Assembly: GCF_000378345.1 (NCBI RefSeq)
Contig: NZ_KB899544.1
Location: forward strand, 930,001-994,000
DNA: 64,000 nt
Source of the DNA: Hirschia maritima DSM 19733
GTDB taxonomy: Bacteria > Pseudomonadota > Alphaproteobacteria > Caulobacterales > Hyphomonadaceae
Direction: 5' to 3'
Position numbers and translations under genes: made by a program. The notes under the pieces were generated by a model. That model did not search any database, had not been told where the DNA came from, and saw nothing but the letters and a program-made list of their open reading frames with translations. Below are positions 8,826 through 12,790 of this stretch, piece by piece. Every line of letters starts with the position of its first letter. Position 1 is the stretch's first letter.

Positions 8826-10175
8826 ATGAATAAAACCGAAGAAATCAGTTTGATAAGTGAAGCAGACGAAAGTGCTAGAAACTATCTGAAATCTATTGAA
8901 GATAGGCGCGTATTTCCTGACCAAGCGGCGCTTTTAAATTTGGATCAACTAGGAGGTAAACTATCCAATGACGGTGCTGATTCATTCGAGACTTTGAATT
9001 TGCTGGCAAGTGTTGGAGAAGCAGCAACTGTCACTTCAAATGGGCCCAATTATTATGGCTTTGTGATAGGGGCGACTCTGCCAGTTGCAGCAGCGGCAGA
9101 CAGGTTGGCAGCTGCTTGGGATCAATGTGCATCTAGTCATGTTAACTCACCTGCGATGGCGAAAATAGAGAAGGTAGCCGGAGAATGGTTACTTGATGTA
9201 TTAGGGCTACCTATTGAATCAGGAGTTGGTTTTGGCACAAGCGCTACCGCGTGTGGAATGTCATGCCTGGCAACCGCTCGCGCTGGTCTTTTACAAGCTC
9301 AAGGATGGGATGTAGCCGAGCAAGGGTTAGCGGGTGCGCCGGTCATTCGTGTCGTAGTGCCAGAAACAGTGCATGTCACAGTGAAAAAAGCATTGAAATT
9401 GCTGGGCTTTGGAATGTCCAATGTGGAATATGCCACTGTTGATGATCAGGGGCGTGTTGTTCCAGAAAAATTGCCTCCAATAGATGCTCAAACCATTTTG
9501 TGCCTTCAAGCTGGTGAGGTTAACACGGGGGAATTTGATAGATTTGATCAAATTATACCGGCAGCCAAACGGGCGGGTGCATGGGTCCATGTTGATGGCG
9601 CGTTTGGATTGTGGGCACGGGCATCGCGACAAAAACGGAGTTTGACCGAAGGGGTTGAATTAGCTGACAGTTGGACAACAGATGGGCACAAGTGGTTGAA
9701 CACTCCCTATGAAAGTGCTGTCGCTATCTGTCGGAACAAGTCGTTATTGGCCAAAACATTGAATGCAGATGCTGTTTATTCAACGGCTGAAGATGACGCG
9801 CAGAAAAATATCACTTTGGAATTTTCACGCAAAGCAAAGGGATTGGGGTTTTGGGCTGTTTTGCGAACACTCGGGCGTGATGGCGTTGAAAAACTGGTAG
9901 ATCAATACTGTGATCACGCAATGGAAATTGCAGCTGGTGTAAAAGAGCTGGGTATAACGGTTCATAATCGCGTCGTTCTAAATCAGGTTTTATGTAGTTT
10001 AGAAACAGATGAGAAAACCCGCGAATTTCTTGATGCAGTTCAAAGGAGTGGCGAGGTTTGGTTTGGGCCAAGTGTTTGGAAGGGGCGACCAGTATTTCGC
10101 ATAAGTGTGTCATCATGGCGGACGCAATCGTACCACGTTAGAAAACTGTTATCGGTTATCGACCGACATCTTTAA
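8826..10175 (+). CDS. PLP-dependent group II amino-acid decarboxylase family protein
   Basis: A 449-residue enzyme of the glutamate/aromatic amino-acid decarboxylase superfamily. The Schiff-base lysine is K289 in TDGHKWLNTPYES, and the PLP-ring-contacting Asp is D257 in HVDGAFGLWA. The N-terminal half has the NGPNYYGFVIGATLP and SSHVNSPAMAKIEKVAGEWLLD stretches seen in this group. The gene follows the ArsR gene by 11 bp. It ends one base before the stop of the convergent SRPBCC gene. Substrate cannot be read from sequence; related proteins are often annotated as aspartate aminotransferase family. Confidence 0.87.
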   Translation: MNKTEEISLISEADESARNYLKSIEDRRVFPDQAALLNLDQLGGKLSNDGADSFETLNLLASVGEAATVTSNGPNYYGFVIGATLPVAAAADRLAAAWDQCASSHVNSPAMAKIEKVAGEWLLDVLGLPIESGVGFGTSATACGMSCLATARAGLLQAQGWDVAEQGLAGAPVIRVVVPETVHVTVKKALKLLGFGMSNVEYATVDDQGRVVPEKLPPIDAQTILCLQAGEVNTGEFDRFDQIIPAAKRAGAWVHVDGAFGLWARASRQKRSLTEGVELADSWTTDGHKWLNTPYESAVAICRNKSLLAKTLNADAVYSTAEDDAQKNITLEFSRKAKGLGFWAVLRTLGRDGVEKLVDQYCDHAMEIAAGVKELGITVHNRVVLNQVLCSLETDEKTREFLDAVQRSGEVWFGPSVWKGRPVFRISVSSWRTQSYHVRKLLSVIDRHL

Positions 10176-10176
10176 T

Positions 10177-10707
10177 TCAATGTTTATTGCTCGTTTGGGT
10201 AAGGCGCTTGATCGCTTCTGTTTTTACGAAATCCACGGCTGGAGCCAATTCGTTTAGCTTTGCATCTTCGTTTCCATATGCAGTTTCATGGAATACGACC
10301 TTGGAACCTGTGCCATTGGGCATAATGGAAATAGACCATGTAACGGTCACATCAAGATCTTTTAAAGGGCCAAAAGGGGCATCCAAAATCAAACTTTTAT
10401 TGGGTTCAAATGAAGTGATGGTTCCGTGCAGGACTTCTCCTGCTTCCCATTTTTCAAGCCACTTCCCGCCAACTTCCAATGTCAGAGACAGGTTTTGAGA
10501 TGAGGATGAGTATGTGTGATCTGGGTGCCACCATGTTTCAGGATGAATAAGTCTATCCCATAACTCTTCAGGTGAGAGCGAAGTTTCTGCTTCTTGTTTT
10601 AAAGTGTATTCTGATGGAGATGAAGACAGGACCTCAGCCTGAACAGGCGTGCTAATCAAGGTAGAAAAAACGAGGAAAGCACCAAGTTTCGTTTTATTGA
10701 AATACAT
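10177..10707 (-). CDS. exported SRPBCC (START/Bet v1-like) domain protein
   Basis: From the ATG at 10707, preceded by AGAGGA, the protein has 176 residues; an ATG at 10725 is also in frame. A signal peptide (about residues 1-25, ending ISTPVQA) is followed by an SRPBCC domain: TLKQEAETSLSPEELWDRL, then GGKWLEKWEAGEVLHG, and a C-terminal helix DFVKTEAIKRLTQ. These domains bind hydrophobic ligands in a deep cavity. Periplasmic location is predicted. It starts 19 bp after the unrecognised gene at 10727-11470 ends, so both may be one transcript. Confidence 0.8.
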   Translation of the reverse strand: MYFNKTKLGAFLVFSTLISTPVQAEVLSSSPSEYTLKQEAETSLSPEELWDRLIHPETWWHPDHTYSSSSQNLSLTLEVGGKWLEKWEAGEVLHGTITSFEPNKSLILDAPFGPLKDLDVTVTWSISIMPNGTGSKVVFHETAYGNEDAKLNELAPAVDFVKTEAIKRLTQTSNKH

Positions 10708-10726
10708 AGTGTTTTCCTCTTTCATG

Positions 10727-11470
10727 CTAAGCGTTTGAAAGCTTGGCTTGTTTCAGTTCCTTTTTAGACAATTGGCGTTTGGTTTTTACTTTAAAGCCAT
10801 CTTGCCTACGCCAATTGTGAGTTTGCAAGGATGTGTATAGTTCATCAAGCCCTATTTCATATCCACTTTCACTAATTGGACGACCAGAAAGCTCGATTTC
10901 GTACCAAATTTCTTCAAGTCGAACTCGCCATTTAAATCCATCGAGATGAATTATAAATGGGTGTTTTTGATTGAAAGCCTTTCTGCGTTCATTTTTATAA
11001 AAATCCCGACGAAATGTGACACCAAATTTGCGGCAGGCTTCGCGTGTTTCTTTGATCGTGCCATCACTGGGATCAACATAAAGCTCGGCAAACCAGTTTT
11101 TTAATTCAACCAATCCACCCCACTTGGTGTTGCTATAGAGCATGCCTCTAGGTGAGATTTTGACTTTGATATATATGAAATCTTCCACATGCTCGCGCAC
11201 ATGCATTTTAACTGTGCTACCAGTATCTAGATGTTCACATATTTCGCTGAACACATCATTCCATTTGCGTCCTTTTTGCTTGTGTAGATAGCGCTTTAGT
11301 GGCGCAAGGTTTTCATTGAGATGCTTGGTATAGCTTGCCTCGAGCATCATACGGTGCCCGGTCACGCGTTGGCGATCGGGACATTTATCATACCGTGTTT
11401 TTGAGCGCGGCGCATGACGGCTGGCCCAACGTGGTCGGTTGATGATGACTTTAAACATATCCTCACGCAT
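10727..11470 (-). CDS. unrecognised 247-residue basic protein
   Basis: I do not recognise a named function. The ATG at 11470 has GGAGG at good spacing; a frame to 11512 is longer but lacks such a site. The protein opens with MREDMFKVIINRPRW and an Arg-rich stretch, then has SLN-like NENLAPLKRYLHKQKGRKW and DVFSEI motifs that I recall from uncharacterised proteins of very diverse bacteria, then a WxxLYVDP-like region (WFAELYVDPSDG), two RRDFYKNERRKAF-type basic blocks and a Lys/Gln/Leu-rich tail. No signal or membrane segment. The basic character hints at nucleic-acid contact. It precedes the SRPBCC gene by 19 bp. Confidence 0.7.
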   Translation of the reverse strand: MREDMFKVIINRPRWASRHAPRSKTRYDKCPDRQRVTGHRMMLEASYTKHLNENLAPLKRYLHKQKGRKWNDVFSEICEHLDTGSTVKMHVREHVEDFIYIKVKISPRGMLYSNTKWGGLVELKNWFAELYVDPSDGTIKETREACRKFGVTFRRDFYKNERRKAFNQKHPFIIHLDGFKWRVRLEEIWYEIELSGRPISESGYEIGLDELYTSLQTHNWRRQDGFKVKTKRQLSKKELKQAKLSNA

Positions 11471-11798
11471 CACAGCCTCCAACTTGGGAGGTGTGGCCAA
11501 GGATTGGTTCAATGAATAAGTGTGAATTTAGATGCGGGAATGCATCTGCGTTGGAATTGCCCATAAGGGATAAACCCGTTTTTTGAGAAGAATTTTAGCT
11601 ATGATTTTAAGGGCGATCGTCTGCATCATTTTCTCCTTTGGTCTGGGGTTAGCAATTCAATATAGTCTATCTCACGCCATTATGGCTTTTTCTTGGTTGA
11701 GATATCGAGATTATTGGTAGGACCAATATTGAGTAATGGTTCAAATTGGTTGACAATAAGGTTAGCTCGATTAGCGTTGTGAGCTGGGAGTATTAACG
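11471..11798. other. 328-bp divergent intergenic region with one possible small ORF
   Basis: The region lies between the divergent starts of the unrecognised gene and the alginate lyase. It holds a possible 39-codon membrane-peptide gene (listed separately). I see no strong inverted repeat or terminator in it. Confidence 0.45.
11601..11720 (+). CDS. possible small membrane peptide (39 residues)
   Basis: An ATG at 11601 opens a 39-codon frame ending at TAG 11718-11720. The product has a hydrophobic N-terminal half (MILRAIVCIIFSFGLGLAI) that could span the membrane once and a polar, aromatic end (FSWLRYRDYW). A weak GAGAAGA lies 11-17 bases upstream. Nothing else supports translation, and no homologue comes to mind, so this is tentative. 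Confidence 0.3.
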   Translation: MILRAIVCIIFSFGLGLAIQYSLSHAIMAFSWLRYRDYW

Positions 11799-12698
11799 AT
11801 GATCGAGAAAATATATAAGAGCTTGGCAATTGTTTGTGTCACTAGTGTTATTGCCTTGCCTGTGCATGCAGAAAAGCAGAAGCCGCCCTTTGAGTTGAGT
11901 GATTGGTATTTAGGATTGCCTATCGATGAAAATGGCGATGGCAAGTCTGATAATATCAGTGAAAAACAATTGGCTGCCGGTTGGACCGATGATCGTTTTT
12001 TCTACTATTCTGAAGATGGGGGTGTTGTCTTTAGAGCGCCGGTCAGAGGTGCCCTTACATCGTCGAATACTAAATATGTCCGCACAGAGTTGCGAGAAAT
12101 GTTGCGCCGTGGAAATACAAAACATTCCACACAAGGCGTGGGTAAGAATAATTGGGTTTTATCTACAGCTCCGAAAAAAACACGCAAAAAAGCAGGTGGT
12201 GTGGATGGAGAACTTACGGCCACGCTTGCGGTAAATCATGTGACAACAACGGGTGAACCTCATGAAATCGGGCGTGTGATTATTGGTCAAATTCATGGCG
12301 AAGATGATGAGCCCGTGAGAATTTATTATAGAAAATTGCCCGGCAATGAGCGTGGTTCGCTGTATTTTGCGCATGAGCCTAGAGGTGAGGAAGATGTATA
12401 TTACGGCTTGCTAGGCAGCCGCGAGGATGATGCGCCCGACCCTACAAACGGGATCGGACTGGGGGAGAAGTTTTCCTATAAAATTGTAGCTTTCGGACAT
12501 GCGCTTGAGGTGACCATTTCTCAAGATGGAAAAGTTATCGGTCGTAATCGCGTGGATATGAGTGAGAGCGGTTATGATGATAAGAATGAATATCTGTATT
12601 TCAAAGCCGGTGTTTATAATCAGAACAGAACTGGCGAAGCGGACGACTATGTCCAAGCAACATTCTATGAGCTCAAAAATTTGCACGTAAAACCTTGA
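11799..12698 (+). CDS. PL7 family alginate lyase
   Basis: A 299-residue secreted protein with a signal peptide ending LPVHA (residue 24). The three PL7 catalytic or substrate motifs are visible: RTELR at residues 95-99, QIH at 164-166 and YFKAGVYNQ at 267-275. PL7 enzymes cleave alginate, the brown-algal and bacterial polyuronate, by beta-elimination using the His and Tyr of these motifs. GGGAG precedes the ATG. No other alginate-degradation gene is nearby; a LuxR-type regulator follows 92 bp downstream. Confidence 0.92.
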   Translation: MIEKIYKSLAIVCVTSVIALPVHAEKQKPPFELSDWYLGLPIDENGDGKSDNISEKQLAAGWTDDRFFYYSEDGGVVFRAPVRGALTSSNTKYVRTELREMLRRGNTKHSTQGVGKNNWVLSTAPKKTRKKAGGVDGELTATLAVNHVTTTGEPHEIGRVIIGQIHGEDDEPVRIYYRKLPGNERGSLYFAHEPRGEEDVYYGLLGSREDDAPDPTNGIGLGEKFSYKIVAFGHALEVTISQDGKVIGRNRVDMSESGYDDKNEYLYFKAGVYNQNRTGEADDYVQATFYELKNLHVKP

Positions 12699-12790
12699 TT
12701 CCGCAAAATAAGTCATTTGCGTACTATTGATTGAAATTAGATAAGGCCTCATTGATTTTCATCGGTGAATATCTGAGTTGAGGTGCCGTT

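Follow-up and report, generated by a model that had tools for sequence, protein, structure and literature searches.

A basic protein encoded in Hirschia maritima DSM 19733 belongs, judged by sequence, to a conserved family without a name in the libraries, and we put the probability that this family serves RNA repair or protection and the upkeep of the translation machinery at roughly 55%. Its relatives often stand beside RNA-repair genes in bacteria or beside tRNA genes in viruses, so the family probably sustains protein synthesis after RNA damage. The H. maritima gene lies in the 64,000-nucleotide stretch of contig NZ_KB899544.1 that was analyzed here (positions 930,001 to 994,000; the window), whose own numbering is used throughout (Table 1).

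The open reading frame (ORF) of the initial annotation exists on the minus strand, and since its stop codon ends at 10727, the coordinates given there are correct. Mechanical ORF calling opens the frame upstream at TTG 11512; we prefer the ATG at 11470, because it is preceded by a GGAGG motif and because the N termini of the relatives begin at this point (MREDMFKV). The protein, of which the genome holds a single copy (one match), has a pI of 9.9 with 51 lysine and arginine versus 32 aspartate and glutamate residues. Its basic character extends to the family, in which the median pI is 10.0 and 120 of 126 aligned rows exceed a pI of 9. The elements first pointed out, MFKVIINRPR, NENLAPLKRYLHKQ, and a lysine-rich tail, were all found in the translation and are conserved rather than a product of chance: a family ORF is present at E ≤ 1e-3 in 154 of 155 loci, including the six rows from which the profile was built and which match by construction. 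The exception, Mycobacteriophage SWU1 (E = 5e-3), was missed when the first profile of the family was run and was dropped as a member. An Rfam search of positions 9800 to 12700 gave nothing at gathering score, a promoter scan found fewer sites than in shuffled sequences, and a terminator scan found 6 sites versus a mean of 2.0 in shuffles.

Table 1. Features of the window and bacterial loci with the full gene order
Feature	Position	Strand	Basis or members
Basic family protein gene, full length, 247 amino acids	10727..11470	-	ORF and translation
Ribosome-binding site GGAGG ahead of ATG 11470	11476..11480	-	By eye
Conserved N-terminal region, residues 1-141	11048..11470	-	Conservation, model, short members
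C-terminal domain, residues 138-247	10730..11059	-	Models (whole chain, domain alone), conservation
SRPBCC-like exported protein gene	10177..10725	-	ORF; Pfam PF10604 below cut-off
Family gene-RtcB-PrfH loci			L007, L015, L016, L017, L019, L021-L027, L033, L037, L043, L046

The profile search suggested by the initial annotation returned no named family. The window protein had no match in Pfam, NCBIfam, PHROGs, or PADLOC and a single chance-level row among PDB sequences (E = 0.57), and nothing convincing was found in these same libraries for 128 family members. At E ≤ 0.01, hmmscan of the 128 members yielded SPOR as the sole Pfam family, in one member (E = 0.0011). Seven PHROGs were matched, by one or two of the 128 members apiece (best E = 5.5e-4). 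Membership of a named family was rejected on the outcome of these single-protein and family-wide searches. A known family, such as one of transposon-associated or phage proteins, had been raised as the competing possibility; no phage library holds the family convincingly, but viral contigs carry it frequently. Searches detected relatives in 134 genome contigs (the best 80 were retained) and in 68 viral contigs, some of them near-identical. The family spans Pseudomonadota, Planctomycetota, and viruses, in line with the proposed undescribed family of distant phyla. The available text of the open-licence PMC literature consulted here gave no name for the family.

In bacteria, the gene is repeatedly linked to that of the RNA ligase RtcB. 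The set of 85 bacterial loci rests on the best 80 of the 134 genome relatives, and some of its members are related to each other, L002 and L075 apparently being one contig. When neighbors up to six rough gene calls away in either direction were clustered, RtcB formed the largest cluster (31 loci), followed by release factors (15) and RtcA (4), again among the best 80 of 134. Counting as adjoining any RtcB gene within 450 bp on the same strand, 32 of the 85 loci from the best 80 of 134 relatives have one, 22 downstream and 10 upstream of the family gene, and 53 have none, with some contigs ending early. If each genome carries one or two copies of RtcB, chance should yield well under one adjacency of this kind. 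ORF starts were set mechanically, and overlaps between the family gene and RtcB are therefore rough. An RtcB profile recovered 42 ORFs, distributed over 40 of 154 loci, and every one of them is encoded on the same strand as the family gene.

In 16 of the 85 bacterial loci (best 80 of 134 relatives), the family gene is followed first by RtcB and then by PrfH, the latter being recognized by a profile of our own. This arrangement is found in sphingomonads, Erythrobacter, Hellea, and Zavarzinia. In L033, both partners exceed the NCBIfam cut-offs (RtcB, TIGR03073; PrfH, TIGR03072); PrfH of G794 is likewise above the TIGR03072 cut-off, and RtcA of L070 is named by TIGR03399. Two kinds of RtcB are present, one over the TIGR03073 cut-off and the others below it. 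On a tree of 93 rows and 146 columns, built by a quick method, with many forks open and with gains and losses merged, adjacency to RtcB requires 11 changes, at least 6 of them being forced by well-supported branches. In the neighborhood analysis suggested at the outset, the informative neighbors, RtcB, PrfH, RtcA, and tRNA genes, were seen only in the relatives.

At the level of whole genomes, RtcB was detected in 35 of 50 family carriers (one match being a 37-position fragment), or in 31 of 46 after leaving out four with RtcB in the locus, versus 89 of 398 genomes in the phylum sample (Fisher p = 1.5e-9, a value that is too small because taxonomy differs between the sets and the rows share ancestry). 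Against such a link, two of the four strong family carriers in the even 398-genome sample have RtcB, which proves nothing by itself. Seen from RtcB, only about 3 of the 89 RtcB-bearing sample genomes have a family member (G032, G154, and, weakly, G130). Three true PrfH loci were found in 240 alphaproteobacterial genomes; all three include RtcB, but only one, apparently the same contig as L037, has the family gene. The family therefore behaves as an accessory of sporadic occurrence.

The window gene itself is an orphan of a mostly RtcB-linked clade, its partners gone. It falls inside a set of 19 rows (SH-aLRT, 99), 15 of which are RtcB-adjacent, and its closest row, with 65% identity over 141 columns and a pairing support of 83, is L014, where RtcB and RtcA lie upstream on the strand of the family gene. 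The window genome, which is 99.7% complete, gave no match at all to RtcB and two to PrfH (TIGR03072), both under the cut-off and presumably RF1 and RF2. Similarly, RtcB was not found in five of six Henriciella-type genomes (L008, L009, L011, L012, and L013), an absence that is soft because these are metagenome bins; the sixth, L010, has one. Values of dN/dS were 0.14 to 0.17 among L008, L009, L012, and L013, 0.11 to 0.16 in pairs with L010, and 0.06 to 0.23 in four other pairs; purifying selection therefore maintains the copies in genomes where RtcB went undetected.

The viral set comprises 60 loci (the 68 contigs plus Myxococcus phage Mx1, with nine near-duplicates dropped). tRNA or transfer-messenger RNA (tmRNA) genes lie inside the locus (within about 8 kb) in 38 of these, and in 21 of 60 they lie within 500 bp of the family gene, whereas genes picked at random from these loci gave 13.0 on average (p = 0.003). 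Single loci have glutaminyl-tRNA synthetase (GlnRS; L113) or EF-Ts (L141) near the family gene, a release factor that is closest to RF1 and under the RF1 cut-off (L140), or peptide deformylase two rough gene calls after the family gene (L098). RtcB was detected in 4 of 47 viral records, one a fragment, and RNA ligase PF09414 in 15 of 47 above the cut-off and 18 at E ≤ 0.001, both raw counts with no baseline. The hypothetical Mx1 protein WNM70250.1 is a family member (25% identity over 91% of the query), and the same 17-kb stretch of this phage holds a macro-domain gene and an NMNAT gene.

These surroundings also bear on another explanation, namely that the family is a general translation factor that binds tRNA or ribosomes and perhaps handles tRNA, outside RNA repair, with RtcB operons and phage tRNA arrays merely gathering translation-support genes. 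The frequent position of viral copies in tRNA arrays, the individual cases of GlnRS, EF-Ts, deformylase, or a release factor nearby, the low number of viral records with RtcB, and the purifying selection on copies in genomes without a detected RtcB would all fit. The bacterial link is more specific than such gathering suggests, however, with RtcB forming the largest neighbor cluster ahead of release factors, sharing the strand of the family gene in every case, and having its adjacency gained or lost several times. We therefore regard a general translation factor as a serious candidate that is clearly less probable than a role in RNA repair or protection.

Several further observations were made in the viral loci. 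tmRNA genes are present in L099, L121, L128, and L131, and L109 (11634-11707) and L126 (13917-14069) contain tRNA genes with a CTA anticodon, which ARAGORN calls tRNA-Pyl and which are perhaps amber suppressors. In L098, an ADP-ribosyltransferase of the polyvalent-protein type (PF18760; 4279-4950) lies ahead of the family gene. In L141 (7854-12807) and L152 (8001-12110), von Willebrand A proteins and RtcB are found within a few kilobases of it, an arrangement that we take to be reminiscent of Rsr-RtcB repair operons. A small protein encoded after the family gene in L100 (8647-9018) shows by eye two HxT motifs resembling those of a 2H phosphoesterase; it had no Pfam match, and the assignment is a lead rather than a claim.

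Structure prediction, also suggested by the initial annotation, gave a confident model without a solved look-alike. AlphaFold2 with 126 rows reached a mean pLDDT of 86.6 and a pTM of 0.73, with lower confidence for a basic arm at about residues 11 to 50. The N-terminal region opens with MRxDMxKVIVERPR, followed by the less confident basic stretch, a helical hairpin, and beta strands ending in YVDPxxGxL. Three residues, W70, V73, and E76, are invariant across the 126 aligned rows, and near-invariant positions include M1, R2, D4, R14, K49, P57, R68, S75, H90, H94, and G137. At the very N terminus, mostly MRxDM, conservation was 1.00 for M1, 0.98 for R2, and 1.00 for D4 (rounded; rows with a letter there). 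The hairpin bears the three invariant residues together with H90 and H94, and by helix register E76, H90, and H94 are predicted to lie on one of its faces. The C-terminal alpha/beta domain consists of a strand, two helices, three strands, a helix, a strand, and a helix, with a basic tail containing KRQLSKKEL, and reached a pLDDT of 88 and a pTM of 0.63 when folded alone. Short members keep the N-terminal region without this domain, and 17 of 22 short members are RtcB-adjacent versus 15 of 63 long ones (best 80 of 134 genome relatives; kinship ignored).

Foldseek found no solved structure at E ≤ 0.001 for the whole model or the C-terminal domain, and with VIA-align the best Z scores against solved structures were only 3.4 and 3.5, respectively, the latter to PC4. 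A viral model library returned one uncharacterized phage protein (E = 6.6e-5), perhaps itself a family member. The predicted fold would thus be without a solved look-alike among the structures searched, from which a new fold does not follow. The order of strands and helices in the C-terminal domain struck us as reminiscent of the RelE-like fold; a RelE-like domain is nevertheless unsupported, the search with the domain folded alone having given PC4 as its best match.

The conserved glutamate and histidines, placed on one hairpin face by the predicted helix register, could alternatively be the active site of a nuclease, possibly an RNase that regulates growth; it would generate or trim RNA ends, and RtcB would reverse its cut. 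Weak fold matches between the C-terminal part and toxin-antitoxin, RelE-RelB, and BrnT chains point in the same direction (Z = 2.1 to 2.9; root mean square deviation, 3.4 to 4.4; 44 to 56 residues), but these Z scores are at noise level according to the note of the tool. Moreover, no nuclease or toxin match was obtained in Pfam or PADLOC for the 128 members, and intact copies are under purifying selection where no RtcB was found, all of which makes a nuclease improbable.

Carriers of the family are scattered. A search with the single protein found 4 of 398 Pseudomonadota genomes, and the profile found 6 of 398, including two weak matches; both counts include the genome from which the window comes. 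Of 199 Planctomycetota genomes, 5 carry the family, one weakly and one as the center of the draw. One copy resides on a Novosphingobium plasmid. Chloroflexota were not counted as a host phylum, as the copy in an Anaerolineae bin (L049, 7503-8273) is nearly identical to that of the alphaproteobacterial L032 and is perhaps a binning error or a very recent transfer. A passenger gene moved between hosts by phages and plasmids, whose neighbors would mean little, could account for this sporadic occurrence and for the phage and plasmid copies, but is very hard to reconcile with the tight spacing and strand concordance with RtcB, recurrent on the tree, and with purifying selection.

The immediate neighbor in the window, to which the initial annotation drew attention, is a local one. 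The SRPBCC-like gene directly follows the family gene on the same strand, its true start likely being 10707, behind a GAGGA motif seen by eye. The genes are neighbors as described, but the neighbor is not informative, and its match to Pfam Polyketide_cyc2 (PF10604) is weak, at 19.9 bits with a cut-off of 27.4. Homologues occur in 10 other loci (L035, L042, L053, L063, L067, L068, L072, L073, L076, and L079), in all 10 on the minus strand with the family gene on the plus strand, and 0.8 to 3.3 kb downstream of it in the seven loci measured. The SRPBCC gene was accordingly rejected as a functional partner, and we read the pattern as the regional gene order of one alphaproteobacterial lineage. 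Among the SRPBCC loci, only the window has both genes co-oriented and adjacent. The divergent gene upstream, at 11799 to 12698, may, from its sequence, encode an alginate lyase of the PL7 type.

RtcB-PrfH gives bacteria a way of dealing with ribosomes that have been cleaved in the decoding center, and how RtcB finds its target is, to our knowledge, an open question. The loci in which the family gene precedes RtcB and PrfH (16 bacterial loci from the best 80 of 134 relatives) resemble the RtcB2-PrfH operon as far as it is presented in the available text of PMC9223846 and PMC1586002. They differ in that the published operon has two genes, as described by Baranov and colleagues in the accessible part of PMC1586002; the window genome, for its part, lacks both partners. 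According to the available text of PMC9223846, the operon guards E. coli ATCC25922 in vivo against colicin E3, which cuts 16S rRNA, the wild type still shows extensive cleavage under colicin E3, and an earlier study cited there re-ligated cut 16S rRNA in vitro. Among the accessory genes of RFH-RtcB systems, Burroughs and Aravind list, in the portion of PMC6514570 available to us, a homologue-less protein with highly charged helices, and accessory domains are drawn there as "RFR" unknown domains. These unnamed RFR domains may include the family described here; it differs from the homologue-less protein of the available text in having many homologues, also in phages and in genomes without a detected RtcB. 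Archease, the activator of RtcB, is a small protein partner of this ligase (PMC10944509, in its accessible part). No match to the Pfam model of archease was obtained for the 128 members at E ≤ 0.01, and none of the structural matches listed by Foldseek and VIA-align is an archease, a list that is compatible with an archease fold all the same.

Taking the evidence together, we read the family as accessory to RtcB(-PrfH) repair, its basic proteins binding RNA or ribosomes and being able to act without RtcB. The finer steps of such a role are considerably less certain than the role itself. The N-terminal part, with its basic arm and the hairpin face formed by E76, H90, and H94, would bind broken structured RNA of the translation machinery. 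The target of PrfH-linked versions would be 16S rRNA of the decoding center, and that of phage versions cleaved tRNA. Once bound, the protein may hold or present the broken ends to RtcB, or shield them from decay. The C-terminal domain, often missing with RtcB next door, may add binding surface or affinity where RtcB is absent. The window copy would have been kept for the share of the work that is independent of RtcB, for example, binding and protecting damaged ribosomes or tRNA.

More tentatively, the family may represent undescribed RNA-repair adaptors, or stand-alone protectors or processors of RNA ends, whose fold is unsolved. Together with RtcB and PrfH, bacteria would use them to restore ribosomes cut by ribotoxins, large phages would sustain translation against host RNases from their tRNA arrays, and some lineages, including that of the window, would keep a self-sufficient RNA protection after the loss of RtcB. 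This wide picture is a good deal less likely than a role in RNA repair or protection as such.

If a role in RNA repair or protection is correct, it would assign a function to a family that is unnamed in the libraries searched, and the third conserved gene before RtcB-PrfH would be a candidate for target recognition or end protection. The copies that lie among the tRNA genes of phages would connect this protein with the protection of translation by phages, and orphan copies such as that of H. maritima offer a means of separating the activity of the family protein itself from that of RtcB.
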